Assembly: GCF_001584725.1 (NCBI RefSeq)
Contig: NZ_CP014606.1
Location: 1 to 64,000 of the forward strand
DNA from: an endosymbiont 'TC1' of Trimyema compressum
Lineage (GTDB): Bacteria > Bacillota > TC1
DNA: 64,000 bases
Direction: 5' to 3'
Within the stretch, counting starts at the first letter, position 1, and each line of letters opens with the position of its first letter. This document shows, piece by piece, positions 8,958-63,916 of the stretch. Both the position numbers and the translations under genes were made by a program. The notes below the pieces were generated by a model. It did not search any database. It was not told the origin of the DNA and saw only the letters and a program-made list of their open reading frames with translations.

Positions 8958-9522
8958 TGAAAATGGATAATATCTTAGAAGCAATAATAATAAGAAAAGT
9001 ACCCGGTCCTATAAAACAATACAAATTAAAAATAATGAGGAAAGAGATGCCATTTTAACAGCAGCAACCTATGCACCAAGTGGCATGAATAGCCAGTGTT
9101 GGCAATTTACTGCTGTTCAAAATCCTGCTATTTTAAAGGAATTAAATGAAAATGTTATCAGAATATTCCAATCTATAAAAATAACAAATGAAACTAGTTT
9201 AGGGTTAGAAGATATAAAAATGTCAGGAGAAAAAGACTATAATTTTTATTTTAATGCGCCCGCTTTGGTAATTGCTTCAGCACCTAAAGATTATGAAAAT
9301 AAAATTGCTGATTGTTCCTTGGCTTTAGAAAATATTTTTCTTCAGGCAACAGAATTAAATATTGGTTCTTGTTGGGTGAGTCAGTTGACAAATTTGTGTA
9401 ATGAACATTATGTTCGTAGAGTATTGGATAAAATTGAAATTCCAGAAGACCATCAAGTAATTGGTTGTGCTACTTTAGGCTATAGCAATGAGTCGGAAGA
9501 AGTTGAGATTCATCGTAATTAA
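8958..9522 (+). pseudogene. Nitroreductase-family protein, frameshifted
   Basis: FMN-dependent nitroreductase fold, about 188 codons if repaired. The start ATG at 8958 reads MKMDNILEAIIIRK. The canonical next residues (S)TRSYKTIQIKNEERDAILTAATYAPSG appear in another frame from about 8998 and continue to 9522. One A missing from the AAAA run near 8993-8996 explains the break. The rest (PSGMNSQCWQF, GSCWVSQL, the C-terminal CATLGY) is well conserved, so the lesion is recent, or a sequencing error. Lies ten bases after the kinase, probably in its operon. Confidence 0.85.
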
Positions 9523-9569
9523 AATGTTATTCATATTATTGACTAATTTAAGAAATATAAGTTTTGTTT

Positions 9570-9602
9570 TAGAAGCTACTATATATAGTAGCTTCTATTT
9601 TT
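9570..9602 (+). terminator. Rho-independent terminator after the nitroreductase
   Basis: Perfect 14-base stem TAGAAGCTACTATA / TATAGTAGCTTCTA followed by TTTTT. Confidence 0.85.
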
Positions 9603-9691
9603 ATACTTATTATCGAAATAAGTTATTTTAAAGGTTAAGATAAAGTCAATGATTAATTAAAATATAAAATAAATGTAAATAGAGTTAAATA

Positions 9692-10349
9692 ATGTTAGAA
9701 GAAGTTCTCGTATTTTGGAAAAATCTTTCTGAAAAAGAAAAAGCTACTATTAATAATAATACGACTCTTTTAAATTATAAAAAAGGAGAAAGTATTCACA
9801 GCCCCTTAAATGAGTGTACTGGCTTTATAGTTGTTCAAAAAGGAATACTAAGAGTATATATATTGTCTGAAGAAGGAAAAGAGATTACTTTATTTAGGGT
9901 CAATAAAGCGAGGTATGTGTTTTATCGGCATCTTGCTTGTTAAAAAATATTACATTTGATGTGTATATTAATGCTGAGGAAGACTCAGATGTACTACTCA
10001 TTAATCCAACTGTATTTTCTCAAATAATGGAGAAAAATATTTATGTTGAGAATTATATTTTAAAGGCTACTGCTGAGAAATTTTCTAATATTATTAAAGG
10101 GATGGAAAATATGCTTTTTTAACTTTTGATAAAAGACTGGCTATGTTTCTACTAGAAGAAATAGGTAATAGTGATTCATTAACTATTTATTTTACTCATG
10201 AGCAAATTGCTAAAAATATAGGTAGTGCTCGTGAGGTTGTCACGCGAACATTAAAAGAATTTTTAAAAAAGGGCTTAGTCGAATTACATAGAGGGCGGGT
10301 TAAAATACTCGATGTTGAACAATTACAAAATTTAGTTAATAATTATTAA
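9692..10349 (+). pseudogene. Crp/Fnr-family regulator, two frameshifts
   Basis: Three adjoining frames together give a complete regulator of about 220 residues. The cyclic-nucleotide-binding-like domain (GFIVVQKGILRVYILSEEGKEITLF...) runs into CVLSASCLLKNITFDVYI in another frame from about 9910; one G is probably missing near 9908. The second break is in the T run at 10115-10120 (one T short), after which the helix-turn-helix follows (FTHEQIAKNIGSAREVVTRTLKEF). The cysteines near CVLSASC resemble the redox-active CRP-like proteins of Clostridia, but no FNR-type iron-sulfur cysteine set is visible. Confidence 0.85.
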
Positions 10350-10362
10350 TATAGCTTCAGAA

Positions 10363-10931: not shown

Positions 10932-12511
10932 TATGAAGCAGATGAAAAAATTATTATTTTGATATTTTTAGTTAGCTTGCTACTGGGTATTTTTTTACCA
11001 GTCTCAACTGTAATAGCCAATGAAGAAAAGCTTGAAATTGTAAAAAATGGTGATTATTTTCCTAAAGATCAAGCAAGCAGTTTGCTGGTTGATAAAGATG
11101 GTAATGACTTACAAAATATACAAAAAGGAAAAGGCTTATATGAATTAGAACAAGTTGGCATTACTAGATATCGTCATAAAGTTAGTATTGAGTATTATTC
11201 AGGAGATTACCTTAATAGTAGCTTAATTGGCATAGATGAGGGTTATGCTGATTATGGAGATTATGTAAGTGATTATATGTTGAAAATTCCAGCAATCAAT
11301 GCAAAATTTGGTGTTAGTATTCCTACAAATTATAAATTAGCACCTTATAGTAAAACTGATAGAAGTGTCTATTAAAAAATTCCAGCATATACAGGCACTG
11401 ATGAAATTATAACAGTAAAAGTATTAGCAGCTGAGGTCAAAAAATACAGTGTTTCAGCAGCGAAGTACCAGAATAGTCAAGATTTAGCTGAACAGCCAAA
11501 TCCTATTGGCAAAAGCAAAACAAATATTGAAGCTTAACTGAGTATTGGAAAGTAAATGAACTATCTATAGACTTCAGTGCAGTTGTTGGTCAAGAAATAG
11601 ATTTTAAAGAAGTTGGTCAATTTACGGATACTTATGTAGCAGGTTCAAGAGTTGGTGATTTAAAATATTTTGGGATGTATGATGCCAATGGAAATTTTAC
11701 TGAAACAAGTACATTTATTGTACCATCTGGATTAACAGGAACCGTTTATTTAGCAGGATTTTATGCAGTGGACGATTTAGGGGAACACCTGCTGTAAAGC
11801 CAAGCTATAGTAGCTCTATAACAAGTGGTGCTGGTGTTGGCTTTGCCGGTGATGAAATGACATGGAAATCAGAAAAAGTAAGCGAAATTCTTTTTACATC
11901 AAATGGTACAAATTTTCAGAAGTTGTCAGCTTATCCATTTCATTTAGCAGCAGATCCATTTGATAATCCTGAGTATCCAGCAACATACTGGACACCAGCA
12001 AACTTTGCTTTAGGTCATAAAATTGAGTTAACATATTATTATAATCAATCTGGAACTATTGACAGTATATATACTGTCAATTTTGAATCAAATGGCGGTA
12101 GTCCTGTCCAAGCAATAGAAAATGTTGATGAATGTACATTAATAGTTGCTCCAGATGCTCCTTACTCACAGCGGGCATAGTTTTGCTGGATGGCATAAAG
12201 AAGCAACTCTTGAAAATAAATGGGACTTTGATAATGATGTTGTTAATACTGATATAACGCTTCATGCAAAATGGCTTCCAACTGAAAATCAAGAAAATAG
12301 TGGAACAATATCTTCAGAGAATAACAATGAAAAAAATCAAGGTTCTTCTGCAAATAATTTAATTAAATCAAAATCTTCAATCAATTTAGCCAAAACAGGT
12401 AATAATAATATTTTAGTAAGTAGTATGACATCATTATTATTTGGTCTTGTTATTGTAATAGTTGGATTAAATAGTTTCAGAAAAAAAGAGATCATAACAA
12501 ATAGAATATAA
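10932..12511 (+). pseudogene. Sortase-anchored surface protein with InlB B-repeat, degraded
   Basis: Joining the frames gives: a signal peptide (MKQMKKL, hydrophobic LVSLLLGIFLPVSTVIA, broken near 10953), a long extracellular region, one Listeria-Bacteroides (InlB B) repeat (VNFESNGGSP...FAGWHKEATLENKWDF...LHAKW, about 12076-12283), a low-complexity linker, and a sorting signal LAKTG (about 12390) with a hydrophobic span and basic tail RKKEIITNRI. Defects: an in-frame TAA at 11373 (CAA to TAA likely) and frameshifts near 10953, 11535, 11780 and 12165. Multiple hits rule out one sequencing slip. It was probably an adhesin-type wall protein. Confidence 0.85.
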
Positions 12512-12925: not shown

Positions 12926-13729
12926 ATGGAAAAGAATAGAGCAATTCCTGAAGGATATATGATTGTTGGAGAGCTAGCAAGGAAAATGAATACGACTGTG
13001 CGTACTTTGCAATATTATGATAAAGAGAATCTACTTCCTCCCTCAGCTGAAAGCTTGGGACGACGACGACTTTATACAGATAAAGATCTCATTCTTCTTC
13101 ATTAAATTCAGTCTATGAAATATTTAGGCTTTACATTAGATGATATTAAAAACAGACTTGTACTTCTTGATACTCCTGAAGATGTAGCTGTTGCATTAGA
13201 AGAACAGGCAAAAGCAGTTAGGGAAAAGATTACATCTTTATCAGATGTTTTACAGGCTATTGAAAAATTGCGTTTAGAAACAATGCAAATGAAAACCGTA
13301 GATTTCAAGAGGCATTCTGATATTGTTGTAAATTTGCAGATGAAAAATCAGTTTTATGGATTGATTAAACATTTTGATGATCAGGTACTGGATCAGATTC
13401 GTAATCGCTTTAATATGGAAAGCGGTACAGCAATCATGAATACCATGTGTAAGTTGTGTGATAAATCAGAGGAGCTTCAAAATAAAGAAAGACCATCAGA
13501 AAGTGAGGAGGGGCAGATTCTTGCTAAAGAATGGTGGGACATGGTTATGAAATTTACTGATGGAGATATGTCTTTGTTACCTTCACTTATGAAATTAGCT
13601 GAAAGCAAAGATGGTGAAAATGATAACTGGAGCGCTAAATGGAAAACGCTAAGGCCTTATTTAGAAAAAGCGCTGGAAATTTATTTTACTAACCTTAACG
13701 ACAATCCCTTTGAGGAGCCAGAACAATGA
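12926..13729 (+). pseudogene. MerR-family activator with TipAS-like domain, in-frame stop
   Basis: 267 codons in one frame, interrupted only by TAA at 13103-13105. The N-terminal MerR helix-turn-helix reads VGELARKMNTTVRTLQYYDKENLLPPS...RLYTDKDLILLH, stop, IQSMKYLGFTLDDIK; the family expects glutamine (CAA) at the stop. A coiled-coil dimer helix follows, then a ligand-binding region resembling TipAS (about residues 140-265) that senses thiopeptide-like drugs in relatives. Good AGGAGG before the ATG. The downstream ABC genes overlap (ATGA) and are its likely targets. Confidence 0.85.
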
Positions 13730-14424
13730 TAGAAATGAATAATATTGCTAAAAGCTTTGCTGGGAAATCTGTGTTGTCCAATGTAACCTATGAGGTGAAA
13801 GAACAGGAAATTTTTGGCTTAATTGGACCCTCTAGTTCAGGTAAAACCACTATTATCAATATTCTTCACATCAGCTTAATAGGGATAAGGGTAACTATAA
13901 AATTGGAGCCTCTCCTTTTGAAATAGGTCTTATGCTAGATGAAGATGGATTATACACCCGTTTAAATTGTATTGAAAATTTAAATGTATTTGCTGAAATA
14001 TATGGTATTTCTCAGAAAAAAATCACTTGAAGCACTGCAAAGTGTTGGACTTGAAGAGGTATCAAAGAAAGCTGTTCACACATTATCTAAAGGTATGCGT
14101 CAACGGCTGGCATTAGCAAGAGCAACTTTACATGAACCTAAAATCTTGTTTTTTGACGAGCCAACAAGTGGTCTTGATCCTACAACAGCTCGTGGTATTC
14201 ATAAACTGATACAGAATTTGCGCAAAAAAGGAGCAACTATATTTCTAACGACTCACAATATGGAAGAAGCTGCTAACCTTTGCGACAAGGTAGCACTTTT
14301 ACATAATGGCAGAATTATTGAGCGAGGAGCACCATATGAAATATGCAAACGACACAATGCTATAAAAACGGTGCCAGATCTAGAGTCGGTTTTCATTAAA
14401 CTGACAGGAGTTGAAATAGAATGA
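13726..14424 (+). pseudogene. ABC-2 type transporter ATPase, frameshifted
   Basis: Walker A GPSSSGKTTI is in the first frame, then the reading shifts near 13867. The middle (DEDGLYTRLNCIENLNVFAEIYG) lies in a second frame up to about 14030, and the signature LSKGMRQRLALARA, Walker B ILFFDEPTSGLDP and H-loop TTHNMEEA in a third. Two indels are needed; the second looks like an extra T at about 14030. Start overlaps the MerR stop. It probably powered drug efflux with the following permease. Confidence 0.85.
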
Positions 14425-15831: not shown

Positions 15832-16899
15832 ATGCTAGAAAAACTAAAAAGTATAGAAGAAAAGTATGAGGCTATTAGTCAAGAACTAATGAATCCTAAT
15901 ATTGCTAGTGATCATAAAGCCTATCAAAAGTTAATGAAAAGCCATAAGAGCATGGAAAATGTTGTTCAGGCCTTTAGAAGATATCAGGTTGTAGATTCAG
16001 AAATTACAGATACTGAAAGTCTTTTAGAAATTGAAACTGACAAAAGTATGAAGGAAATGGTTGAAGACGAATTAAAGGAATTAAAAGAAGAGAGAATTAA
16101 ACTGGAAGAAGAGTTAAAAGTTTTACTTTTACCTAAAGACCCTAATGATGACAAGAGTGTTATTATTGAAATTAGAGGAGGGGCTGGTGGCAATGAGGCT
16201 GCATTATTTGCTGGCGATCTTTTCAGAATGTACAGCCGTTTTGCTGAAAGTAAAAACTGGAAAATAGATATTTTAGATTCTCATGAAAATGATGTTGGAG
16301 GCTATAAGGAAATTGTTTTTTCTATTGAGGGACAAGGGACTTATAGTCAATTGAAGTATGAAAGTGGTGTCCATAGAGTCCAGAGAATTCCAACTACAGA
16401 ATCAGGTGGCCGTATTCATACCTCAACAGTAACAGTTGCTGTTTTACCTGAGGCTGAGGAAGTAGACGTAGATATTAATCCTAATGATGTTCGTGTTGAT
16501 TTATTCTGTTCTAGTGGACCAGGAGGACAGTCTGTTAATACAACTCAGTCCGCTGTTCGCTTAACTCACGTTCCAAGTGGTATAGTGGTTTCTTGTCAGG
16601 ACGAAAAGAGTCAGCATAAGAATAAGGACAAAGCTATGAAGGTTTTAAGGGCTAGACTTTATGAAAAGACTATGGAAGAAGAAGCAGCAAAAATTGCTAG
16701 TGAAAGAAAAAGCCAAGTTGGTACAGGTGATAGAAGTGAGAGAATTAGAACCTATAACTTTCCTCAAAATAGAATTACGGACCACCGTATTGGTTTAACA
16801 ATTCACCGTTTAGATGGTTTTCTTGAAGGTGATTTAGAAGAAATTATCAATGCTTTAATTACAACCAATCAAGCAGAAAGATTAAAAGAATCTGTTTAA
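15832..16899 (+). CDS. prfA: Peptide chain release factor 1
   Basis: 355 aa. The GGQ peptidyl-tRNA hydrolysis motif is in [18 protein letters not shown] near residues 227-244. The codon-recognition PxT motif appears as [14 protein letters not shown] near 183-196. ATG at 15832 has AAGGAG upstream; an earlier in-frame start is not supported. Terminates at UAA/UAG. Its glutamine is the methylation target of the next gene, prmC, one base downstream. Intact. Confidence 0.98.
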
Positions 16900-16900
16900 G

Positions 16901-17742
16901 ATGACTATTTATGATTTATTAAAAGAAGCTAAAAAAAAGCTAAGGCAGTGGGTTATTGTGGAACAGAAGTGGAAGCTATTTTAGCGGATGTCTTAAATAA
17001 AGAAAGAGTTTACTTACATATGCATGGCGAAAAAAATGTAGATTCATTAATTGAGAGTACTTTTTTAAAAAAGATAGATATGCTTGAAGCTGGCTATCCT
17101 TTTCACTATGTTATGGGAAAAAAAGAGTGGATGGGATTGGATTTTTTAGTCAATGAAGCTACTTTAATACCAAGAGAAGATACGCGAATTTTATTGGAAG
17201 CTATTCTATCCTTGAAAGATAAGGCGAGCAATCCTGTTTTAGTCGAAATTGGCACAGGTTCTGGTATTCTACCTGTCCTTGTCAAGAAAAATTGGGAAGA
17301 TAGTGTGATTTACACAGTTGAGGTTAATGAAACAACGTTAGCTGTCGCTAAGGCAAATTTTAAAAACCATCATGTTGAGATTAGAGCTTTAAAAGGGGAT
17401 TTTTTAGAACCTTTAAAAGAAAGAAACATAACTTGTAAGGTGCTTTTTTCAAATCCGCCTTACATCAGTAAGGAAGAAATGGAAGTTTTAGATGCTTCAG
17501 TAAAAAAAGAACCTTATGGGGCATTTTTTGGTGGTGAAGATGGATTGGATTATTACAGACGTCTAAGTAATGAGTATTCCTTAGTTTTAGAAAAATCAGG
17601 TTATTTGATTGTAGAAATAGGCTGGTTGCAAGGTTTAGCTGTAAAAGAGATTTTTGAAAGTAAAGGGCTCATTCATGTAGCAACTTTTAAGGATGATGGT
17701 AATCGAGATAGAGTTATTATGATGCAGAGGAAATTAAAATGA
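16901..17742 (+). pseudogene. prmC: Release-factor glutamine methyltransferase, one-base frameshift in poly(A)
   Basis: N5-glutamine methyltransferase for the GGQ of release factors, about 280 codons. The start MTIYDLLKEAKKK is followed by an 8-A run (16931-16938); nine As would restore KKKAKAVGYCGTEVEAIL, which opens the second frame. Everything after is conserved: SAM motif VEIGTGSGILPV and catalytic NPPYI. Loss of PrmC slows growth badly in studied bacteria. So either the read is one A short, or poly(A) slippage restores some product, or the gene is lost. Overlaps tsaC by four bases. Confidence 0.85.
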
Positions 17743-18791: not shown

Positions 18792-19241
18792 ATGGTTATC
18801 TTGTTCGTATGTACAGGAAATACATGTAGAAGTCCTATGGCAGAAGTAATGGCTAGGGACTTTTTTACAAAAAAATAATTTAGATATAAAGGTTTTATAA
18901 GCAGGGCTTCAAGGATTAGAAGGGGTACCTGCTAGTTCTCGTGAAAAAGCATTGGAAAATATTGGTTTATCTAGTGAGGATCATAGAAGTCAAGGTCTTA
19001 CATTAGAATTAATTGAAAATACTGATAAAATTTTAACCATGACCAAAGGTCATGAAGAAGCTATCAAGGCTTATTTTTCTGATGTAGAGAAAATTGAAGA
19101 GAAAGCGGAGACCCTAAATTTTTTGCTACAGGCACGGAAGGTGATGTAACAGATCCCTTTATGGGTTCTTTAGCAATATATGAAGTTTGTAGAGATCTTA
19201 TAAAAGAATTAATTGAACAAGGAAGATGGGAGGATATTTAA
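18792..19241 (+). pseudogene. Low-molecular-weight protein phosphatase (YwlE type), degraded
   Basis: The P-loop CTGNTCRSPMAE is intact at the start (CX5R motif). The frame then breaks in the A run 18869-18875, meets an in-frame TAA at 18898-18900 (VL, stop, AGLQG, where serine is expected), runs open, and breaks again in the T run near 19120. Only after that does the catalytic DPF motif (GDVTDPFMGSLAIYEVC) appear. Three lesions mean a true pseudogene. In relatives the enzyme removes phosphate from protein arginine or tyrosine, and the gene sits at exactly this place before rpiB. Confidence 0.88.
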
Positions 19242-19708
19242 TGAAAATAGCAATTGCTTCTGACCATGGTGGTTTTGAGTTAAAGGAAACTATAGGCGAA
19301 GCACTATTAAAAAAAGGTATCGAAACTATGGATTTTGGAACATTTTCAGAAGAGTCTGTAGATTATCCAGATTTTGCTTTAAAAGTTGGAGAAGCTATTA
19401 ACAATAAGGAAGCTGATTTAGGTATTTTAGTATGTGGTACAGGCATTGGCATGTCTATAGCTGCCAATAAAATAGATGGCATTCGCTGCGCTTTGTGTAG
19501 TGATGTTTATTCTGCAAAAATGACGAGAGGTCATAACAATGCAAATGTATTAGCATTAGGACAAAGAGTGCTTGGCGATGGTTTAGCAATGATGATTGTA
19601 GATACATTTATTAATAGCCATTTTGAGGGTGGTCGTCATCAAAGAAGGCTAGATAAAATAAAAGACATAGAAAATGGCTATAAAGGAAATGATGGCAATG
19701 AAGCGTAA
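19241..19708 (+). CDS. rpiB: Ribose-5-phosphate isomerase B
   Basis: 155 aa RpiB/LacAB fold. MKIAIASDHGGFELK at the start, active-site cysteine in VCGTGIGMSIAANK near 67-80, and a typical arginine-rich end. The start is the ATG at 19241 with GGGAGG eight bases before it; it shares a base with the stop of the ywlE relic. Interconverts ribose-5-P and ribulose-5-P. Intact although its upstream neighbour is decayed. Confidence 0.95.
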   Translation: MKIAIASDHGGFELKETIGEALLKKGIETMDFGTFSEESVDYPDFALKVGEAINNKEADLGILVCGTGIGMSIAANKIDGIRCALCSDVYSAKMTRGHNNANVLALGQRVLGDGLAMMIVDTFINSHFEGGRHQRRLDKIKDIENGYKGNDGNEA

Positions 19709-20126
19709 AAGCTGGGATACATACTTTATGGAAATAGCTGATCGCGTTAAAGATAGAAGTACTTGCCAAAGAAGACAGGTAGGTGCTTTAGTTGTTAAAG
19801 ATAAAAGAATTAAGGGAACAGGCTACAATGGTAGCCCACCTGGGTTGCCTCACTGTACAGAAGTTGGATGTTATGAGGTCAATGGTCGTTGTAAGAGAAC
19901 AATTCATGCTGAGATTAATGCTATTTTAGAGTGTACACCAGAGGAAAGAGCAGGTGCAACTATTTATATTACAGACCAACCTTGTTTTGAATGTACAAAA
20001 GTAATAATTGCTTCAGGGATTACGAGGGTTCTATACAGAAATCCATACGATAATGATGTAGATTTATTTTTAGAAGCGCCGCATATTGAAGTAATTAAAT
20101 GGGAGGATAAAAATGAAAGTAATTAG
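19698..20126 (+). CDS. comEB: dCMP deaminase (ComEB type)
   Basis: 142 aa cytidine-deaminase fold. Zinc site: HAE in [10 protein letters not shown] near 69-78 and PCFEC near 96-100. Deaminates dCMP to dUMP for thymidylate synthesis. I prefer the ATG at 19698 ([11 protein letters not shown]), which overlaps the rpiB end; two in-frame ATGs lie slightly upstream. Ends overlapping wecB by 14 bases. The same rpiB-comEB-wecB order is common in Clostridia. Confidence 0.9.
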
Positions 20127-21225
20127 TGTTTTTGGCACGAGACCAGAAGCCATTAAAATGGCACCATTAGTGAAGGCCTTAGAAAAAGAACCTTCTATTA
20201 ATTCTAAAGTAATAGTAACGGCACAACATAGAGATATGTTAGACCAAGTGTTAGGCTTATTTGATATTGTTCCTGACTATGATTTGGATATTATGAAAAG
20301 CGGACAAACATTGACAGATGTGACAACAAGAATATTAGAAGGTCTATCTCCAATTTTAAAGGAAGAAAAACCAGATGTTGTTTTAGTTCATGGTGATACC
20401 AGCACAACTTTTGCATCTGCATTAGCTGCTTTTTATGAAAAAATTGCTGTAGGACATGTTGAGGCAGGTTTGAGAACTGGTAATAAGTATTCTCCTTATC
20501 CAGAAGAGATGAACAGACAGTTAACTACAAAATTAACAGATTATCATTTTGCGCCAACTGAAAAAGCAAAAAACAATTTACTAGCAGAAGGTATTGATCC
20601 AAAGACTATTTATGTTACAGGCAATACAGTTATTGATGCTCTTTTATCTGTAGCTAAAAAGCCTTTTGATGTTCAGACAATTCCTGGACTTGAAAATATT
20701 GATTTTAATAAGAAAATAATTTTAGTAACAGCACATAGAAGAGAAAATCTAGGCGTTCATATGGAAAATATTTTCTCTGCAATTAAAGATATTTTAAATG
20801 AAGAAAAGGGCGTAGAAGTTATTTTTCCTATTCATAAAAATCCAAAAGTAAGAGAAATTGCCTATAGCTTTTTAGGAGATAATAAACAGGTTCATTTTAT
20901 TGAACCATTAGATTATCAACCTTTTGTGAAAGTAATGGAAAAAGCCAACCTTATTTTAACAGATTCTGGTGGCATTCAAGAAGAAGCGCCTTCTTTAGCA
21001 AAACCAGTTTTAGTTTTAAGAGACACAACTGAAAGACCTGAAGCTGTTGAAGCAGGAACGGTTGTTTTAGCAGGTGTTAACAAAGAGGACATCTACAATG
21101 AAGCAATGCTTTTATTAAGAGATAAGGAAGTTTATAATAAAATGGCAAATGCTACTAACCCTTATGGTGATGGTAAAACAAGTGAACGCATTGCTTCTAT
21201 TCTATCTAGAGGAGGCAATGACTAA
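20113..21225 (+). CDS. wecB: UDP-N-acetylglucosamine 2-epimerase, non-hydrolysing
   Basis: 370 aa. [13 protein letters not shown] at the N-terminus, EAGLRTGN near 118, the TAHRREN motif near 210 and [13 protein letters not shown] near 285 are the family hallmarks. Makes UDP-ManNAc, the substrate used by TagA-type transferases such as the one encoded at 26844, so both probably serve wall-polymer linkage-unit synthesis. AGGAG-like RBS inside the comEB end. Intact. Confidence 0.96.
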
Positions 21226-21707
21226 TGCTAAAAGGAGTAGTAGGATTTCTAGGTATGTTTTTTGTTATGTTACCATTTTTCTTAATTAATATTAAAATTA
21301 TTAAAATTAAAAATAATGGTAAATTTGTTAGAGTTTTTCTTGTTCTTTTAGTTTTAATGATCGCAGCAGCAGTAGTAGTTGGTCTAAGTTTATATCCAAT
21401 TGGAGAAAACACTTTAATTGGTGGACTTTTTGCATTTGCCGTTTATGTAGTATTAATTGTTATTCAACTTTTTTTACATGCTCGTTACGTAAAAGAGGAA
21501 GAAACGCATTTGGACATAGGTAATGACTCTTTTAAAAATGAAATGGATATGGATAGTGAATTAGAAGAGACAGAGGCAGATCCAACTTTAGCTGTGGAAC
21601 CGGAAGAATATGAAAATCTTGAAGAAACACAAACTATTAGAAGAGAAGAGCTTCAAAACAGTGAAGAGTGGAAAAAACAATGGATGATTTATTTAAATAG
21701 GAAGTAG
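21225..21707 (+). CDS. Membrane protein with acidic cytoplasmic tail, unknown
   Basis: 160 aa, not recognised. Three hydrophobic spans (about 4-25, 34-60, 65-88), then a strongly acidic tail (about 92-160) rich in E and D. Start overlaps the wecB stop by one base. In many Clostridia this slot is next to atpZ/atpI-type genes, but no similarity to them is obvious. Probably a real gene: good coupling and no competing frame. Confidence 0.75.
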   Translation: MLKGVVGFLGMFFVMLPFFLINIKIIKIKNNGKFVRVFLVLLVLMIAAAVVVGLSLYPIGENTLIGGLFAFAVYVVLIVIQLFLHARYVKEEETHLDIGNDSFKNEMDMDSELEETEADPTLAVEPEEYENLEETQTIRREELQNSEEWKKQWMIYLNRK

Positions 21708-21719
21708 GAGACTATCAAT

Positions 21720-22892
21720 ATGGATAAAGAATTTCAAAAAATTGTTTTTCAATTTATAGAAAGCAAAAGCTATACCGGACAAGAAAAATCAATGGTAGAA
21801 ACTGTAAAAAAAGTTATGGAATCTTTGGATTATGATGAAATAATTATTGATGATGCTGGAAATATTATTGGCGGTATTCATGGCTTAGAAGAGGGACCAG
21901 TAGTTCTTTTTGATGGCCATATTGATACAGTAGAAGCTGATAATGTTACAGAGTGGACAGAAAGTCCTTTTTCACATTATATTGCTGATGGCAAATTATT
22001 TGGAAGAGGGACTTCTGATATGAAGGGTGCTTTTGCGGCTATGGTTTATGCTGCTGGTACACTTGAAAGAGGCAAACTTAAAGGTTCTGCTTATGTATCT
22101 GGAACTATTCATGAAGAAACAGCGGAAGGTTATTCAATTAATAATGTTTTAGATATTGTTAAACCAGACGTTGTGGTTATTGGTGAAGCAACAGAGTTAA
22201 GGATTAATATTGGACAACGGGGAAGAGGAGAAATAGTTTTAGAAACTTACGGTAAATCAGCTCATTCTTCTAATCCTAATATTGGTATTAACAGTGTTTT
22301 AAAAATGAATAAAGCGTTACTTGCTATTGAAGAAAAATATGTGGAAAAAGAAGATGTTTTAGGAAAAGGTATTTTAGTGTTAACCGATATTATTTCTACA
22401 CCGTATCCAGGACAATCAGTTATTCCTAGAGTATGCCAAGTGACTTTCGATAGGAGACTGTTATTAGGGGAAACAAGAGAAAATGTTTTAGAAGGTATTG
22501 CAGCTGTTTTAGAGCCTTTAAAAGAACAAGATTCTGAATTTTCCTATAAATTATATTTTAGAGAAAATAATTTTAAAACATATACTGGATTTTCATTTTC
22601 AGGAGATAAGTTTTATCCACCCTGGAAAATTGATGAAGAGGACACGGTAGTTGTGAAAGCAAAAGAAGCTTTAATAAAGGCGGGAATTAAACCTGAAATA
22701 AGTGTTTATTCCTTTTGCACAAATGGTAGCACAACCTGTGGTGAAAGAGGTATAAAAACAATTGGTTTTGGTCCGGGTAGAGAGCAAGAAGCCCATATTA
22801 CTAATGAATTTATAAGTATAGATGATTTGGAAAAAAGTATTATTGGGTATCGCTTCCTAGCTTTGGCTTTAACAGGAGAAGGAGAAATTTAA
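21720..22892 (+). CDS. M20-family metallohydrolase, YgeY-like
   Basis: 390 aa. Zinc-ligand motifs of M20: DGHIDTV (about 65-71), [10 protein letters not shown] (about 98-107) and HEETAEG near 135. The NIGQRGRGE segment and the C-terminal [16 protein letters not shown] resemble YgeY-type hydrolases linked to selenium-dependent purine breakdown. Alternatives are N-acetyl-ornithine/succinyl-diaminopimelate deacylases; the position directly before argH (TAATG overlap) would also suit an acyl-amino-acid deacylase. Family certain, substrate not. Confidence 0.8.
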
Positions 22893-24268: not shown

Positions 24269-24284
24269 GGGGGGGGAACAGGAC

Positions 24285-25553: not shown

Positions 25554-25616
25554 TCAGAAATCTGTTAACCTATAAACTAGCTTTTAAAGCAAGCATTTTA
25601 AATTAGGAGAAGAAAT

Positions 25617-26831: not shown

Positions 26832-26843
26832 ATAGGAGATGTA

Positions 26844-27584: not shown

Positions 27585-27606
27585 CATCTTAAGATGTTAT
27601 TTTTTC
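27577..27606 (+). terminator. Terminator after tagA
   Basis: Perfect palindrome AATAACATCTTAAGATGTTATT followed by TTTT; the tagA stop codon lies in its 5' arm. Confidence 0.88.
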
Positions 27607-29286: not shown

Positions 29287-29298
29287 AGGAGTTTATTC

Positions 29299-47527: not shown

Positions 47528-47695
47528 AAATACGCCTCCTTTAAATTACATAATTTCCTCTATATTATATCATATATACTAATATAAAAAAATAGGCCGG
47601 TTTTTCCTTTATTAGAGCCATTCTTCAATTGCTAAAAAGGACTAAAAAGGATACAATTAAGAAGTAATATTTAAAAAAATAAAGGTGGGATTAAG

Positions 47696-49304: not shown

Positions 49305-49377
49305 AAATTTTAAGCATAAGTTAGTTATAAATAACTAAAAGTTTCATAAAACAAGTAGCAAGAAAGGGGTTCTCATT

Positions 49378-50318: not shown

Positions 50319-50352
50319 AGGAAATGAAAAAGACAGTCCACAAAAAGCAGTA

Positions 50353-50535
50353 ATGAGAAAATTAATGAAAGAATATCTAAGTAACAATGATATGAGCCAA
50401 AGATGGAAATGATGTAAACTTTGTTATTAGAGATATAATATCTTACATAAAACCATTCGTCATAGAACTCCTAGACACAATAGTAAGGCTGAACCTTCTC
50501 ATCGTAATGATAACAACAGATTTTATTAATTCTTA
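50353..50535 (+). mobile_element. Two transposase scraps: IS256-like and rve-type
   Basis: Scrap one (50353-50445): MRKLMKEYLSNNDMS then KDGNDVNFVIRDIIS in a shifted frame, like the N-terminus of IS256-family transposases. Scrap two (about 50450-50535): KTIRHRTPRHNSKAEPSHRNDNNRFY, like the rve integrase-core end PRHNGKVERSHRNDxERFY. They abut directly, so two different elements decayed and were fused. Identified by motif memory only. The rest of the gap to greA has no gene. Confidence 0.6.
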
Positions 50536-50645
50536 ACATTTACATTCTTACATGATTAAAATGTTAAACATTCTAACTTTCTTTTTGAAATTTGTCTCAC
50601 ATCATTGTACAATTAAATTTAAAATACTAAACTTAGTGAAATGTA

Positions 50646-50675
50646 TTGACCTTCATAAAGGATATCAGATATAAT
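50646..50675 (+). promoter_or_regulatory. Sigma-A promoter of greA-lysS
   Basis: TTGACC (50646-50651) and TATAAT (50670-50675), 18-base spacer, about 55 bases before the greA ATG. Confidence 0.75.
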
Positions 50676-50686
50676 GAAAGAATAAG

Positions 50687-50704
50687 GACTGCCTATAGGC
50701 AGTC
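50687..50704 (+). promoter_or_regulatory. Palindrome in the greA leader
   Basis: Perfect 18-base palindrome GACTGCCTATAGGCAGTC directly after the expected transcription start, followed by ATTCTTCTT. It could be a leftover terminator for upstream transcripts, an RNA stem that shields the mRNA 5' end, or an operator. Confidence 0.6.
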
Positions 50705-50730
50705 ATTCTTCTTATATTAGGAGGGAAACT

Positions 50731-51207
50731 ATGAAAGAACAAGAACAAGAAACGATTCTTACCAAAGAAGGGTATGAAAAGTTAAAGGAAGAGTTAGAGT
50801 ACTTAAAAAATGACAAGAGAAATGAAGTAGCAGAGAGAATTAAGATTGCCATTAGTTTTGGTGATTTAAGTGAAAACTCAGAGTATGAAGATGCTAAGAG
50901 AGAGCAGGCCCATTTAGAGGGTAGAATTGCTGACTTAGAAAAAAGTTTAAGTCGCGTTAAGATTATTGAAGAGAAGTCTGATTCTCAAAGAGTGAAGCTA
51001 GGTTCTAAGATTAAAGTGAGAAATATAGATACTAATGATGAGTTAGTCATTACAATAGTAGGTTCTATGGAGTTTGATCCAGAAAATCTAAAGATTTCTA
51101 ATGAATCTCCTATTGGTAAAGGTCTGCTTGATAAAAAAGTTGGCAGTACTGTGAAAATTACGTTGCCAGCAGGTATTGTTTCTTATAAGATTTTAGAAAT
51201 TATTTAA
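50731..51207 (+). CDS. greA: Transcription elongation factor GreA
   Basis: 158 aa. The N-terminal coiled coil (1-75) has the tip acidic motif GDLSENSEYEDAKREQ that enters the RNA polymerase secondary channel. The C-terminal FKBP-like domain ends ...SPIGKGLLDKKVGSTVKI. Rescues backtracked polymerase. TAGGAGGG before ATG. Forms an operon with lysS, 20 bases downstream, as is usual in Bacillota. Confidence 0.97.
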   Translation: MKEQEQETILTKEGYEKLKEELEYLKNDKRNEVAERIKIAISFGDLSENSEYEDAKREQAHLEGRIADLEKSLSRVKIIEEKSDSQRVKLGSKIKVRNIDTNDELVITIVGSMEFDPENLKISNESPIGKGLLDKKVGSTVKITLPAGIVSYKILEII

Positions 51208-51227
51208 GGGATTAAGGAGGGTGTTTC

Positions 51228-52691
51228 ATGGAAGAGAATTTAACAGAATTATTGCAGATTAGACGTGATAAAATAGATGCTTTAAAAGAAAAGGGCATTG
51301 AACCTTTTCATGGTCAATTCAAGAGGACCCATCAAACTAAAGAAATCCTGGATAATTTTGAAGCTTTAGAAGGACAAAAAGCCATTATTAGAGGTCGTTT
51401 AATGTCTAAAAGAGGTCATGGAAAAGCTGCTTTTGTCAATGTGGCAGATATGAGTGGCAATATGCAGGTCTATATTAGAAAAGACCGTTTAGGTGAAGAT
51501 GCATTTGATGTTTTTACATCTTTAATTGATATTGGAGATATTATTGGTGTTGAGGGAGAAATCTTTAGAACACAAAAAGGAGAAATCTCTATTAGAGCTG
51601 AAAAAGTTACATTGTTAACTAAAAGCTTACTGCCTTTACCTGAAAAATTCCATGGCTTAAAGGATGTTGATTTAAGATATAGACAGCGTTATTTAGATAT
51701 GATTATGAATGCTGATGTCAAAGATACATTTGTAACTAGAAGTAAGGTTTTAAGAGAAATTAGACATTTCTTAGATAATAAAGACTTTTTAGAAGTGGAA
51801 ACACCTGTTTTAACGTCTATAGCTGGAGGGGCTTCCGCCCGTCCATTTATTACCCATCACAATACACTTGATATGGACTTATTCTTGAGGATTTCTTTAG
51901 AGTTACCATTAAAAAGATTAATGGTAGGTGGTATTGAGAGAGTCTATGAACTGGGTAGAGTATTTAGAAATGAAGGTGTTTCAACAAAACACAATCCAGA
52001 ATTTACTTTACTAGAAGTTTATCAAGCTTATGGGGATTTAAGAGATATGATGTCTTTAACAGAAAATATGGTAGCAACAGTTGCTGAAAATGTTTTAGGG
52101 AAAACAGAAGTTGTCTATCAAGGAACACCGATTGATTTTAAACAACCTTGGAGAAAAATTTCCATGGTTGATGCTGTTAAAGAACATACAGGTATTGATT
52201 TTGAAGCTATTGGCTCTGACGAAGAGGCTATGGCTATCTGTAAAGATCAGTTAGATATTGAAGGTAATTTATCTAAGGGCGAGCTTTTAAATGAAATGTT
52301 TGAAGCTCATGTTGAAGAGCAATTAATTCAACCAACATTTGTTTATGATTATCCTCTGGAAATTTCACCATTGGCGAAAAAATTAAGGGATAATCCAATG
52401 CTGACCGATCGTTTTGAAGCGTTTGTATTTGGTCGTGAGCTAGCTAATTCATTTAGTGAGCTAAATGACCCTATTGATCAAAAAGAGCGTTTCTTAGATC
52501 AGGTTGCTCGTAAAGAAGCTGGCGATGATGAGGCTCAACCTTATGACAGCGATTTTATTACTGCCTTAGAATATGGTATGCCTCCTGCTGGTGGTATGGG
52601 TATGGGGATTGACAGATTGGTTATGTTTTTAACGGATGCCCTGTCTATTAGGGATATTATTATCTATCCAGCCATGAAAAACAAAAATTAA
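51228..52691 (+). CDS. lysS: Lysyl-tRNA synthetase, class II
   Basis: 487 aa. N-terminal OB-fold anticodon domain (about 50-150), catalytic domain with class II motif 2 RVFRNEGVSTKHNPEFTLLE near 244-263 and motif 3 GMGMGIDRLVMFL near 465. Charges tRNA-Lys. GGAGGGTG upstream of ATG. Ends in a terminator. Intact. Confidence 0.98.
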   Translation: MEENLTELLQIRRDKIDALKEKGIEPFHGQFKRTHQTKEILDNFEALEGQKAIIRGRLMSKRGHGKAAFVNVADMSGNMQVYIRKDRLGEDAFDVFTSLIDIGDIIGVEGEIFRTQKGEISIRAEKVTLLTKSLLPLPEKFHGLKDVDLRYRQRYLDMIMNADVKDTFVTRSKVLREIRHFLDNKDFLEVETPVLTSIAGGASARPFITHHNTLDMDLFLRISLELPLKRLMVGGIERVYELGRVFRNEGVSTKHNPEFTLLEVYQAYGDLRDMMSLTENMVATVAENVLGKTEVVYQGTPIDFKQPWRKISMVDAVKEHTGIDFEAIGSDEEAMAICKDQLDIEGNLSKGELLNEMFEAHVEEQLIQPTFVYDYPLEISPLAKKLRDNPMLTDRFEAFVFGRELANSFSELNDPIDQKERFLDQVARKEAGDDEAQPYDSDFITALEYGMPPAGGMGMGIDRLVMFLTDALSIRDIIIYPAMKNKN

Positions 52692-52697
52692 GGAATC

Positions 52698-52730
52698 CTA
52701 AAAGGCTGCTTTTTTAAGGCAGCCTTTATT
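52698..52730 (+). terminator. Terminator after lysS
   Basis: AAAGGCTGC / GCAGCCTTT stem around TTTTTTAAG, then TATTATAT; the T tract is short. Confidence 0.75.
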
Positions 52731-52766
52731 ATATGCAAATTAAGATAGAAGGAGATGAATGCTAAT

Positions 52767-53813
52767 ATGAATATAGCTGTTTCTTTAATTGTTACCATTA
52801 TTTTAGTAGCAGCTAACGGCTTTTTTGTTGCTGCTGAGTTTTCTATGGTTAAAGTGCGCAGAACAAGACTTGAGACAATGGCCAACGAGGGTAATAAGAT
52901 GGCGGCTAGAACCGTTGGTGTTGTTGACCGACTCAATGCCTATTTGTCAGCCTGCCAGTTAGGGATTACACTGGCTTCTCTTGGTTTAGGTTGGATTGGA
53001 GAGCCTGCTGTTTCTCAGTTACTAATGCCTGTTTTTGAATGGTTTAATGTGCCTGAAAGTGCTACCCATTCAATTTCGTTTATTGTCGGCTTTTCCATTA
53101 TTACAACACTTCATATTGTATTGGGAGAGTTAGCGCCTAAGTCACTGGCCATTGTTAGTACTGAAAAAATTGCTAATTATACAGCATTGCCGTTGATTAT
53201 ATTCTATAAGATTACCTATCCAATTATTTGGTTATTTAATAAAGTGACAGAATTAATTTTAAGAATGGTTGGTATTAAGCAGGTGGATAATCATGATGTA
53301 GCCCATACTGATGAGGAAATTCGCCTCTTGGTAGAAGATAGTTATGAACAGGGTTTAATTGATGAAACTGAAATGCAATTTGTGGACAATGTAATTGATT
53401 TTTCTGATACCCACATTGTGGAAATTATGATTCCTAAAGAGGAAATGGTAACTGTTAAGGAAACAGATTCCATAGAATCCATTAATAAGATGATTTTAGA
53501 ATCAAAGTTAGAACATACTCGTTATCCAGTATATTCAGAAAAAGATACTATTATTGGCTTTATCCATATTAAGGACTTATATCAAGAGCTTTTGTCAAAA
53601 GAAGATAAATCTTTAGAGGAGATTATTAGACCAATTCGATTTGTACCTAAAAATGCTTCTATTAGTAACGTCTTAAAAATCTTTCAAAAAGAAAATAACC
53701 ACTTAGTTATTGTTAAGGATGGTTATGGCACTATCGTAGGAATGGCTACTATGGAGGATATTTTAGAAGAAATTGTAGGGGAAATTGATGATGAGTTTGA
53801 TATAGAAGATTAA
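52767..53813 (+). CDS. CNNM/CorC-like (hemolysin-family) membrane protein, short form
   Basis: DUF21 membrane domain of about four spans (1-190; VSLIVTIILVAANGFFVAAEFSMVKVRRTRLE), then a CBS pair (about 205-335). The usual C-terminal CorC_HlyC domain of about 80 residues is absent: the protein ends right after VGEIDDEFDIED. Relatives are linked to Mg/Co efflux or tolerance. I take the ATG at 52767: the one at 52755 overlaps GGAG and cannot be used. Clean stop and terminator follow, so the short form may be natural. Confidence 0.85.
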   Translation: MNIAVSLIVTIILVAANGFFVAAEFSMVKVRRTRLETMANEGNKMAARTVGVVDRLNAYLSACQLGITLASLGLGWIGEPAVSQLLMPVFEWFNVPESATHSISFIVGFSIITTLHIVLGELAPKSLAIVSTEKIANYTALPLIIFYKITYPIIWLFNKVTELILRMVGIKQVDNHDVAHTDEEIRLLVEDSYEQGLIDETEMQFVDNVIDFSDTHIVEIMIPKEEMVTVKETDSIESINKMILESKLEHTRYPVYSEKDTIIGFIHIKDLYQELLSKEDKSLEEIIRPIRFVPKNASISNVLKIFQKENNHLVIVKDGYGTIVGMATMEDILEEIVGEIDDEFDIED

Positions 53814-57986: not shown

Positions 57987-58664
57987 ATGTTTTATCGAAT
58001 CGCTTGGCATATTTGTCATTTTTTTGTTTTTTAACAGGGCGGACAGAATATTATCAAAAAAAACAATCTCTTTGAAGAGTAATCATTCCTATTAGTATCT
58101 AATCATCTAAGCAATTTTGATCCTTTTCTAGTAGCATTAAGAATGAAAAGAGAAGTAGCTTTTTTAGCTAAGGATTCTCTATTTGATAATAATATTTTAA
58201 ATTGGATATTAAGAAAGGTAAATGCTTGGCCTGTAAAAAGAGGTGGGGATCCAAGAGAGGCTATTGAGCAAATGGTCTTATTTTTAAAAGAAGGCAAGCC
58301 TATTACCCTTTTTCCAGAAGGTCAGAGAAATAAGACAGATCGTCCTCTTTTGCCTTTTAAACAGGGAGCAGCTCTGATTGCTATTAAAGCGCAAATTCCT
58401 GTTATTCCAGTGGCTATTAAAGGGTCTCAATACTTTTTTGGAAAAAAGGAAATTGTCTATGGAGAACCTATGATGCCACCAACTAAAGGAGGTAAGGCTC
58501 AGCGAGAAGCTTTTACCAAGGATTTAGAATTTTCTATTGCCTATATGTTAGAGCAATTAGACTATTACGGAAGCAAGGAATATAAAAAGCACATAATTAA
58601 GGAAGAAGGCGTTGTAACGAATGTTATACTATATTGTTGTTTTTGGAGCCAAACTTTATTTTAA
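57987..58664 (+). pseudogene. 1-acyl-glycerol-3-phosphate acyltransferase, first copy, frameshifted
   Basis: Start MFYRIAWHICHFFVF (57987) breaks in the T runs near 58020-58032. The HX4D acyltransferase motif SNHLSNFD reappears at about 58100 after a further shift near 58075. The later motifs are clean: FPEGQRNKTDRPLLPFKQGAAL and IPVIPVAIKGS. So at least two frameshifts at the N-terminus only. It is a tandem paralogue of the next gene, with which its 3' end overlaps by 44 bases. Redundancy probably allowed decay. Confidence 0.8.
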
Positions 58665-59220
58665 AATAATTGGGCGTTTAAAAAATTTAGGCAAAGAGAA
58701 CATTCCTAATAAAGGAAGCTATATGATTGTCTCTAATCACATTAGCAATAAGGATCCTTTTATTTTAGCTTCTGGGAAATTAAAGCCCTTAACATTTATT
58801 GCAAAGAAAAGTCTTTTTAGAGGTTCTCTAGGCCTCTTATTTAGATTTCTAAAAGCAAAACCCATTGATCGCGATGGGGATCCAAGAGCAATATTAAATT
58901 TAGCTGTTGAATTACTGGGTACGGGTCATCTTATTGGTATTTTTCCTGAAGGTACTAGAAATAAAACAGGGGAGTTATTAGGGCCTTTTAAGAAAGGGCC
59001 AGCCTATATTGCCTGTAAAGCTCAAGTTCCCATTATTCCAGCATCTGTATGGGGGACTAATTGTGGTGGTTTTCATAAAATTGTTTGTGAGTATGGTGAA
59101 CCATTTATGCCACCAGAAGGCAGTGGTAAAAAACAGGTTGAAGAATGTAATCAGATGATGGAGCAGAGGATACGCCAACTCCTTGAGGGTATTATTGAAA
59201 AATATGATAAGAAAAAATAA
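58621..59220 (+). CDS. plsC: 1-acyl-sn-glycerol-3-phosphate acyltransferase, second copy
   Basis: 199 aa. HX4D motif SNHISNKDP near 40-48, KKSLFRGSLGLLFRFLKAKPIDR, FPEGTRNKTGELLGPFKKGPAYIA near 108-131 and IPASVWGT. Peripheral membrane enzyme turning lysophosphatidate into phosphatidate. Start ATG 58621 (MLYYIVVFGAKLYFKI, membrane-facing helix) lies within the tail of the broken paralogue. Intact. Terminator follows. Confidence 0.9.
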   Translation: MLYYIVVFGAKLYFKIIGRLKNLGKENIPNKGSYMIVSNHISNKDPFILASGKLKPLTFIAKKSLFRGSLGLLFRFLKAKPIDRDGDPRAILNLAVELLGTGHLIGIFPEGTRNKTGELLGPFKKGPAYIACKAQVPIIPASVWGTNCGGFHKIVCEYGEPFMPPEGSGKKQVEECNQMMEQRIRQLLEGIIEKYDKKK

Positions 59221-59289: not shown

Positions 59290-60598
59290 AATGAAGCTCT
59301 TCTTCTTTTTGGTTTTTTAAATAATGTTTTGTAATTAAAGAGAATATTTAGAAGAATAGCCGTTAGAGCAGTCACTAAAATACCACTTTTCCCTGTAAGC
59401 ATTTGGATAGATTCAGGTAAGCCAGCAAAATAAGCCTGGAACTACAGATAGTCCTAGCCCTAAAGCAATTGAAACACCTACAATTAACATATTTTTGTTA
59501 TCATCTAAATCAGCTTTCTTAAGCATATTAATACTACCCATAACAACCATGGAAAACATAACAACAGCTGCACCACCAAAGACTGCTGGAGGAATAATAG
59601 TAGCTAATGCGGCAAATTTAGGAATAGTACCTAAAATAAGTAAAATAATACCAGCGGCAACAGTTACCATTCTATTGGTGACTTTTGTTAATGCTAGAAG
59701 GCCTATATTTTGACCAAATGTAGTATAAGCGAAACAGTTGAAAACACCACCTAAAACAGCGCCTAACCCTTCAGCTCGATAGCCTCTTTTTAAAGCATTT
59801 TGATCTACTTTAGTATTGGGCAATATTACCGATTGTAAAAAACATACCTGTAGATTCTGTCATAACCACTAACATTACAATACAAATGGAAATAATGCCT
59901 TGAATATTAAAAGTAGGTAAACCAAAAGCAAAAGGTGTAATAAATCTGAAAAATTCTGCTGACTGAAGCTGAGAAAAATCAGACATACCTACTGCTGTAG
60001 CTACAATAGTTTCTAAAACAAGACCAATAATAACAGCTAAGGTTCGAATAAACCCAGAAAAAGCGATTAACGATTAATATAATTAAAATTACAAGTATTG
60101 AGATTAAGAGATATTTCATTGCTCCAAATTCTGGATTAGTTACACCGCCAGCTGCATTTCTCATGGCTGTTGGAATTAAACTCAAACCAACAACTGTGAC
60201 AATGGAGCCATTTACAATATTTGGGAAAAAGCGCACCAGCTTACTTAAGAAAGGGGCTACTAGAAAAGAGAAAATACCGGCTACAATTACACTTCCAAAA
60301 ATAGCTGTAATTCCAAATTTGTTACCAATGCCAATCATGGGACCTACTGTGACAAAGGAAACCCCCATGACTACAGGCAATTTAATACCAATAAAATTTC
60401 CGATACCAAAGGATTGAATAATAGTTGCAATCCCGCAAGTAAATAAATCCGGCCGCTACTAAAAAGGAGATTTCATCTGGACTTAGGCCTATACCACCAC
60501 CCTACAATAATAGGAGCAACGATAGCTCCAGCATACATGGCTAGGACGTGTTGTAAGCTCAGTACTGAAAGCCTGCCAAGGGATAGTTTTTCGTTCAT
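59290..60598 (-). pseudogene. NCS2 xanthine/uracil permease, degraded
   Basis: Start ATG 60598 with GGGAG (MNEKLSLGRLSVLSLQHVLAMYAGAIVAPIIV, a classic purine-permease N-terminus). Breaks occur near 60500, 60440, 60070, 59820 and 59430. Clear pieces: GIGNFIGIKLPVVMGVSFVTVGPMI, VGLSLIPTAMRNAAGGV (NCS2 signature region), YTTFGQNIGLLALTKVTNRMV, VFGGAAVVMFSMVVMG. Together about 430 residues. Xanthine/urate type is likely, matching the xanthine-dehydrogenase-like operon 3 kb away, whose small subunit is also broken. Confidence 0.85.
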
Positions 60599-60760
60599 TT
60601 TACTCACTCCCGTTAAATTAGTTAAGTTCACATAAATAATGCCTTGTACGTAGATTATAGCCATCTTCATCATAAAAATCTTTAGTTGGAAATACAAAGT
60701 TTGAAATTCTAAACACATTAAATTCAGATTAAAATACAAGGAAATATACAGATTGTAAAA

Positions 60761-61548: not shown

Positions 61549-63173
61549 TACAAGTTACTGCTACTAATAAATTCCATTACTTTAGGCATAACTTGTTTTT
61601 TTCTAGAAACAATGCCTTCCAGGAATTTGCCTTTATGAATATTAGGTCCAAAACAGTAAGTCGCTAAATACTTAGAATCAGGTTCATAGTAGATATAGGA
61701 ACCTTTTTTGAGAATATCTGTTATTGAAAGGATAACATAGGCATTTTTATTTTCAGTTTTAATTTTAATCATTAGATTTTCTAATTCTTCTTCTCTTTCT
61801 TTTAGGGTATCGATATCTAATGTGAATATTTGGCTAATACAAGCTTTTTTCTCATCACTTTCAAACCATTTTAAATCCTTATAGAAAAGCTCTTTAGTTG
61901 AAATAGTGCCTAGGGCTGTTCCTGCTTTAAACATATCTCTAGCAAAATCATTTACATCAAGGTCTAAATGTTTTTCTAAAAGTGCAACATATCTTCTATC
62001 GGTATCAGTTGTTGTAGGAGAAGTTAACATTAAAGTATCAGATATGATTCCTCCTAAAATTAAACCGCAGTAAGCATCATCAGGCATCATATGTCTTTCT
62101 AAAAATTCTTGCAGGAGTAAGGTGCTGGTACTGCCTAATGGCAGGTTTTTAAATTGTAGAGGATAAGTGGTTTTAATATCCCCTAATTTATGATGATCAT
62201 AAATTTCTAAAATAACAGCTTCCCTAAGGCCTTCAGCACTTTGAATATATTCATTATGGTCAACAAGGATAACACTTTTACCTTGAGCGCCAATTAAATT
62301 TTTACGAGAAAGCATTCCTAAGTAGCGGTTTTTTTCATCAACTACGGGGAAGGCTGATTGATTAGGTTTATTTTTCATGTCCTCTACTACCCAAGAAAGA
62401 TAATCTTGGTCACCAAAATAATCAGCATCTCTTTTTAAATAGGTTGCAATTGTTTTGCAAAGGGGTAGTTTTTTTGATGTTTCATAACTATCAAAAGGGG
62501 TAGAGATAATGGTAATATCTTTAGCATCAGCTTTGTCAATTAATTCTTGAGGTAAATTATGATTACCAGTAACAATAATTAAAGAAACATTTTTTTCAAT
62601 AGCCAATGCTGTAATATCATGGCGATCACCAACAATAGCAATATGATAATCTTTTAAAATATCTTTCTTTTTAAGAGTATCATAGTGATAGGCTAAAACA
62701 ATGATTTCTCCATTAATATAGAAGGGTGGTGTTGTCCTAGTTAAAGGACTGGAAGATAAGCCTTCGCAAATATTATTGAAAGGGGCATTTAGCTCCTTTT
62801 CATAAGTTCTAATGAAAGTCAGGGCTAGTTCTTGCAAATCAACAATGCCCATAACATGGTTGTGCTTACTCACAACAGCAAGAGAACGGAGTTCTTCTTT
62901 TTCCATTAAATGAATGGCTTCCATAATACTAGTAGTTAAGGTTCCTACTGACGCTTTTGTATATGGAATATCAGCTACCTGTGTTTTAACATTTTTTAGA
63001 TAGCGAGGAGCATTGATTTTAAATCTATTTAAAATGTATTGGGATTCTTCATTAATAGGACCTAAACGACAAGCTTGGGTTTTAATGCCTAACTTCTTTT
63101 TTAGATGGGCTAAGACAAGAGATGCCACTATGGAATCTGTGTCAGGATTTTTATGGCCGAATATATAAATCAT
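61548..63173 (-). CDS. ppaC: Manganese-dependent (family II) inorganic pyrophosphatase with CBS-DRTGG insert
   Basis: 541 aa. DHH-family N-terminus IFGHKNPDTDSIVASL; after the inserts the core resumes: VDHNEY near 305, DHHKLGD near 326, GGIISDTLMLTSPTTTDTDR near 368. A pair of CBS motifs with a DRTGG domain between them is inserted at about 70-300; in relatives it binds adenine nucleotides (AMP inhibits, ApnA activates), tying activity to energy state. Hydrolyses PPi. Intact. Confidence 0.95.
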   Translation of the reverse strand: MIYIFGHKNPDTDSIVASLVLAHLKKKLGIKTQACRLGPINEESQYILNRFKINAPRYLKNVKTQVADIPYTKASVGTLTTSIMEAIHLMEKEELRSLAVVSKHNHVMGIVDLQELALTFIRTYEKELNAPFNNICEGLSSSPLTRTTPPFYINGEIIVLAYHYDTLKKKDILKDYHIAIVGDRHDITALAIEKNVSLIIVTGNHNLPQELIDKADAKDITIISTPFDSYETSKKLPLCKTIATYLKRDADYFGDQDYLSWVVEDMKNKPNQSAFPVVDEKNRYLGMLSRKNLIGAQGKSVILVDHNEYIQSAEGLREAVILEIYDHHKLGDIKTTYPLQFKNLPLGSTSTLLLQEFLERHMMPDDAYCGLILGGIISDTLMLTSPTTTDTDRRYVALLEKHLDLDVNDFARDMFKAGTALGTISTKELFYKDLKWFESDEKKACISQIFTLDIDTLKEREEELENLMIKIKTENKNAYVILSITDILKKGSYIYYEPDSKYLATYCFGPNIHKGKFLEGIVSRKKQVMPKVMEFISSSNL

Positions 63174-63340
63174 TTAGTCACCTCTCTGGAATTTATTTTA
63201 ATTATTTAGAAAAAATTACTTAAATTCTTTTTATCTACTATTATCTATCATAGTACTTCCATTATAGTAAAAATGAAAGGTTTTTACAAAAAAGATTTTA
63301 ATTTTTTGGAAAAATATAGCTAAAGAAAAGAGGAAAATAG

Positions 63341-63369
63341 TGGCAGAAAAAGGAGTAATATGGTATGAT
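63341..63369 (+). promoter_or_regulatory. Possible promoter of the molybdenum hydroxylase operon
   Basis: Extended -10 TGGTATGAT (TATGAT at 63364-63369) with a weak TGGCAG at 63341-63346, spacer 17. Only the -10 is convincing. Confidence 0.4.
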
Positions 63370-63441
63370 TTAGGAAAATAGGCATTTGAAATACATGTTT
63401 TTGTGAAAATGTTTTCAATTTAAGGGAGGCTATAGTGTACA

Positions 63442-63916
63442 ATGAGAGACATGACGTTATTAATTAATAGTAAAGAGGTCAATGTATCAGTAGATGAAAG
63501 TTGGACTCTGTTATATGTATTAAGAGAAGTATTAGGATTAACTGGCACTAAAGAAGGCTGTGGAACAGCGGATTGTGGAGCCTGTAAGGTTATTCTAGGC
63601 GGGAAAGCAGTTAATTCTTGTGTCATCAAACATTAAGAAAGCAGAAGGCAAATCAATTACTACAATTGAAGGTCTAGCAGCGGGCGAAAAACTGCATCCT
63701 ATTCAACAAGCCTATATTGATGCTGGTGCTGTTCAATGTGGATTTTGTACACCTGGAATGGTCATGACTACAAAAGCATTGCTGGATGTAAATAGCAACC
63801 CAACTGAAATGGAAATTAGAGAGAGTTTTAAAAACAATCTTTGTCGTTGTACTGGTTATGCGAAGATTGTTGATGCTGTAAAAATGGCAGCAACTGCAAT
63901 GAAGGAGGGGAAGTAA
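63442..63916 (+). pseudogene. Molybdenum hydroxylase [2Fe-2S] subunit, frameshifted
   Basis: XdhC/CoxS-type small subunit of about 158 codons. The plant-ferredoxin cluster motif GTKEGCGTADCGACKV and the second cluster CGFCTPGM...CRCTGYAKI are both intact, but in different frames. The break lies at about 63620-63632, just after NSCV (a GT-repeat change of two bases, or one extra base). Passes electrons from the molybdenum centre. GGAGG before ATG. Directly followed by the catalytic subunit. A single lesion, so a sequencing error remains possible. Confidence 0.85.

Follow-up and report, generated by a model that had tools for sequence, protein, structure and literature searches.

The genome of TC1 is very probably undergoing genome-wide pseudogene formation, at an early stage of genome reduction in an intracellular symbiont. 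Gene-breaking lesions are in excess over those in a relative and cluster within individual genes, core genes are spared, the mismatch-repair genes mutS and mutL are broken, and the insertion-sequence load is heavy. TC1 lives in the cytoplasm of the ciliate Trimyema compressum, where it is mutualistic rather than parasitic; its authors conclude that reduction of the genome is under way, and the cultured strains are only distantly related to it (PMC5034148). An initial annotation, made without knowledge of the organism, had proposed recent host restriction or a population bottleneck from the sequence alone, and the identity of the symbiont bears out the first of these. Life inside a ciliate would relax the constraint on genes for regulators, transporters and surface proteins and on several biosynthetic genes. 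Such genes would then collect frameshifts, stops, deletions and insertion sequences, and selection would keep the genes of replication, transcription, translation and wall synthesis clean. Breakage of mutS and mutL would raise homopolymer slippage and add further mutations. We infer that relaxed selection is the cause of the decay and that loss of mismatch repair has been an accelerator.

Distribution of lesions across the genome

The assembly consists of a chromosome of 1,586,453 bp that starts at dnaA (CP014606) and a plasmid of 35,795 bp (CP014607). The closest genomes compared come from a different genus within the TC1 family (DnaA identity about 71%), and these family-level relatives are metagenome bins labelled Bacillota or Fusobacteria. 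The whole TC1 genome, in which 2,500 bases of the chromosome (1205001-1207500) read as N, was compared with 1.18 Mb of one relative, G002, so that the counts cover genes with a counterpart there. Protein identity between the two is about 60%, a distance at which synonymous sites are expected to be saturated.

Orthologues were aligned with a purpose-written protein-to-DNA aligner that tolerates frameshifts and stops, and were counted only if the alignment covered 60% or more of their length. Before filtering, 114 of 491 orthologues carried lesions in TC1 (270 frameshifts and 74 stops), against 16 of 512 in the reverse control. Short antisense reading frames of the relative, for example opposite rplN and rplL, gave false broken calls and were removed. 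After filtering, 110 of the 477 TC1 orthologues were broken, with 332 lesions in 496 kb. The filtered reverse control showed 16 broken of 489 (Fisher p about 2e-21 versus TC1), a broken-looking share of about 3%.

Lesions were strongly clustered. Broken genes held about three each, or 3.1 per kb, and most had two or more. Under uniform scatter about 260 of the 491 unfiltered orthologues would have stayed intact (maximum 299 in 10,000 simulations), whereas 377 were observed. The broken fraction fell with conservation: it was 42% for orthologues at 35-45% identity and 7% for those at 75% identity or above. Broken homologues identified through G002 included hisB, metF, cysK, purL, glpK, pfkA and a UbiD-type decarboxylase. 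The phosphofructokinase orthologue (chromosome 1583548-1584598) has seven frameshifts, which may interrupt standard glycolysis if no other enzyme stands in. Single-lesion calls at the ends of conserved genes (ribose-phosphate diphosphokinase, a GcvH-like gene and typA) are probably alignment artefacts.

Core genes were assessed separately in a set of 70 found through E. coli proteins and totalling 61 kb, which spans ribosomal proteins, RNA polymerase, translation factors, wall synthesis, secretion, dnaE and others. The mean rate predicts 41 lesions for this set; a single doubtful one was seen, where rseP ends (P about 6e-17). Indel density in essential genes elsewhere in the genome, which the initial annotation had named as a point on which its reading could fail, is therefore far from equal to that in broken genes.

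Genes of the window

The window is the whole stretch of DNA that was first annotated, bases 1-64000 of the chromosome (64,000 nucleotides). Its features are listed below.

199-8947, + strand: dnaA, dnaN, recF, RecJ-like DHH protein, response regulator and WalK-like histidine kinase; intact block, with family matches and no internal frameshift or stop versus relatives
9085-9522, + strand: nitroreductase-family fragment lacking its N-terminus, likely broken; the Pfam match starts at profile position 34 of 167
9692-10337, + strand: Crp/Fnr-type regulator, firmly broken; -1 frameshifts at 9906 and 10121 versus the G002 orthologue, with a family match
11857-12511, + strand: surface repeat protein in pieces, likely broken as judged from short reading frames with weak matches to surface-protein repeats
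13726-14415, + strand: ABC transporter ATPase, firmly broken; frameshifts at 13868 and 14013, with a reading frame for the second half of the domain only
15832-16896, + strand: prfA, intact by NCBIfam and by alignment to relatives
16901-17727, + strand: prmC-like gene, likely broken but of uncertain state; a single frameshift near its start, in an A8 run
18792-19232, + strand: low-molecular-weight phosphotyrosine phosphatase, firmly broken; frameshifts at 18870 and 19118, TAA at 18898, with a family match
19241-33911, + strand: wecB, M20 peptidase, argininosuccinate lyase, murA, LCP transferase, tagA-type transferase, argS, pyrG and rho; intact block, with family matches and no internal frameshift or stop
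33991-34629, - strand: AraC regulator, C-terminal part only, likely broken; matches only the C-terminal parts of longer regulators
39621-41143, + strand: ABC exporter genes, broken; membrane and ATPase pieces are separate, with frameshifts and a stop
44487-45419, - strand: ABC ATPase (ATPase 44505-45416), firmly broken by a stop at 45074, from alignment and family match
47690-53813, + strand: galE, greA, lysS and a CNNM/CorC-type gene, intact by alignment and families; about 49.3-50.7 kb holds no recognised gene
57987-58550, + strand: plsC-like acyltransferase, firmly broken; TAA at 58032 and 58080, with a family match
59413-60739, - strand: xanthine/uracil permease in three pieces, firmly broken; three reading frames cover consecutive parts of a single Pfam profile
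63442-63907, + strand: [2Fe-2S] subunit of molybdenum-hydroxylase type, firmly broken; one frameshift near 63622 followed by a stop, with a family match

The exporter region contains two firmly broken ABC ATPases (40073-40427 and 40601-41143), and a MerR-like fragment in the window is likely a further broken gene. An intact second acyltransferase lies at 58621-59208. The initial annotation had put the number of broken genes in the window at about 25. About nine are firm, and a small number of others are likely. The total falls short of 25 because many of the fragments in the 36-44 kb interval have no family match. An Rfam search of the window gave no match. The accompanying claim, that dispensable genes are broken and essential ones clean, held up: dnaA, dnaN, recF, prfA, murA, argS, pyrG, rho and lysS are all full length by NCBIfam and show no internal lesion versus relatives. 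A frameshift called at 15825, 5' of the prfA start, was an artefact of a longer reference reading frame.

The prmC-like gene takes its name from its place after prfA and from its sequence rather than from a family match. With an internal start at 16948, most of the frame is still open. The gene would be expected to matter, and it is possible that the internal start or slippage rescues it.

Mismatch repair and an IS3-type element

Versus an order-level relative, mutS (chromosome 1008850-1011183) carries eight frameshifts, one stop and deletions. Its neighbour mutL keeps the first 83 and about the last 175 residues; some 340 residues between them are missing, and an insertion-sequence copy (1007308-1008576) sits in the gap within the mutL-mutS region (1006638-1011183). 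In eight family and order relatives both genes score over the family cut-off and are free of stops. MutS2 is fragmentary in TC1; recA, uvrA and uvrB are intact, uvrA as judged from a 1143-residue open frame. Frameshifts were enriched near homopolymer runs of at least five bases (125 of 267 versus 44 expected). Broken mutS and mutL would raise the rate of slippage in such runs, and the decay has likely been speeded by the loss of repair.

The published genome lists 35 complete and 147 partial insertion sequences (PMC5034148). We found an IS3-type element of about 1.27 kb in 30 full-length copies that are 99.7-100% identical, and about 35 near-identical places of the element in the chromosome (for example 81463-82742). 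Repeats make up 3.7% of the chromosome and almost none of the relative, which as a metagenome bin may under-represent them. Aligned to a Listeria relative with account taken of the natural frameshift of the element, all 30 full copies show the same TAG in orfA and the same three frameshifts in orfB. No intact IS3-type transposase was found in the assembly, and the other IS3-type matches are fragments. At two variant sites the copies show all four combinations; one of the sites is a single-base deletion and could recur. A consistent 3-base target duplication around the copies was not found. A script search for copies that split a G002-matched gene returned none, and the mutL case was detected separately. 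Both the broken repair genes and the expansion of the element lie outside the window.

In Wolbachia wBm, dead insertion sequences with stops and frameshifts likewise persist as highly similar copies, which are attributed to gene conversion (work cited in PMC3196728). The TC1 case differs in that the element is of IS3 type, the bacterium is a Bacillota symbiont and conversion is presumed. Tentatively, TC1 may be a mismatch-repair-null mutator in mid-reduction, a scheme that we hold with less than even confidence. An insertion sequence or an adjoining deletion would have removed the middle of mutL, slippage would then have broken genes that selection did not hold, and the transposase-dead element would persist in its 30 copies through gene conversion or helper-driven spread.

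Alternative explanations and stage of reduction

The assembly was made from long reads only, whose homopolymer errors can create false frameshifts, and the enrichment of frameshifts near runs points the same way. Sequencing or assembly error is nevertheless extremely improbable as the source of the lesions. The initial annotation had looked to polished reads as a check, and the assembly is already a PacBio consensus at 839x coverage with two rounds of Quiver polishing (PMC5034148). Runs of at least seven bases are about as frequent in intact genes (1.12 per kb) as in broken ones (1.02 per kb), and errors would strike both; the lesions are concentrated in a fifth of the genes. None of the 437 such runs in intact genes carries a frameshift, compared with 36 of 112 in broken genes. 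Intact genes are frameshift-free by definition, so it is the clustering that carries the homopolymer argument. One third of the frameshifts are two-base, in-frame stops and deletions occur as well, and the core-gene test contradicts read error. The earlier dismissal of a uniform error rate therefore stands. Recoding is also very unlikely, although slightly less so: stops and frameshifts would be read through, for example where transcription slips on a run of A or T, and the protein would still be made. Slippage rescue of this kind is known in Buchnera and Blochmannia, and some single lesions in TC1 do lie within runs, as in the A8 of the prmC-like gene. However, frames and stops are normal in the core genes, the tRNAs found included no suppressor of TAA or TAG, and the multiple lesions of most broken genes argue against it.

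A more substantial rival, though still a doubtful one, makes mismatch-repair loss the main cause: in a mutator lineage, slippage would have broken those genes that selection could not hold. The state of mutS, mutL and MutS2 beside intact recA, uvrA and uvrB favours it, as does the homopolymer enrichment. Yet homopolymer slippage dominates indels in repair-proficient cells too, many of the lesions are stops, two-base shifts or deletions, and mutS may be simply one more victim of decay. We prefer relaxed selection in an intracellular symbiont, with repair loss as a probable contributor to the pace of decay.

Relaxed selection of this sort is a process well known in kind, and reduction of the TC1 genome has already been described; the announcement gives no pseudogene count, repair-gene status or transposase state (PMC5034148). 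The loss of mismatch repair and the dead IS3-type element were not found in the accessible TC1 literature, although this does not prove them unpublished. Clostridial endosymbionts of termite-gut protists are, like TC1, low-GC Bacillota in anaerobic protists, and carry 94-248 pseudogenes, many of them in mobilome and replication or repair genes; they belong to a different family, and their genomes are 1.0-1.3 Mb, whereas that of TC1 is still the size of its relatives (PMC10579323). The young Sodalis endosymbionts of lice have, as TC1 has, inactivated dispensable genes and retained others. Some of these lineages have intact mutH and mutS and only in-frame deletions in mutL, in contrast to the clearly broken mutS and mutL of TC1 (PMC11137140).

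TC1 provides one of the few complete symbiont genomes from anaerobic ciliates. With its measured pseudogene load, the control in a relative and the broken repair genes, it can serve to illustrate the earliest stage of reduction in a symbiont from the Bacillota, in which function is lost before DNA. A smaller and more AT-rich genome is expected only at later stages of reduction. At 1.62 Mb, TC1 is not smaller than its relatives (1.1-1.7 Mb), and with a GC content of 0.327 versus 0.320-0.337 it is not more AT-rich. Coding density is low: reading frames of at least 80 residues cover 75% of the chromosome versus 91-94% in the relative. Size and GC like those of relatives suggest that function decayed before much DNA was lost, which fits the initial proposal that host restriction was recent. 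Despite the insertion-sequence load, GC skew is symmetric and switches cleanly once, near 0.8 Mb, suggesting that few large rearrangements have lasted.
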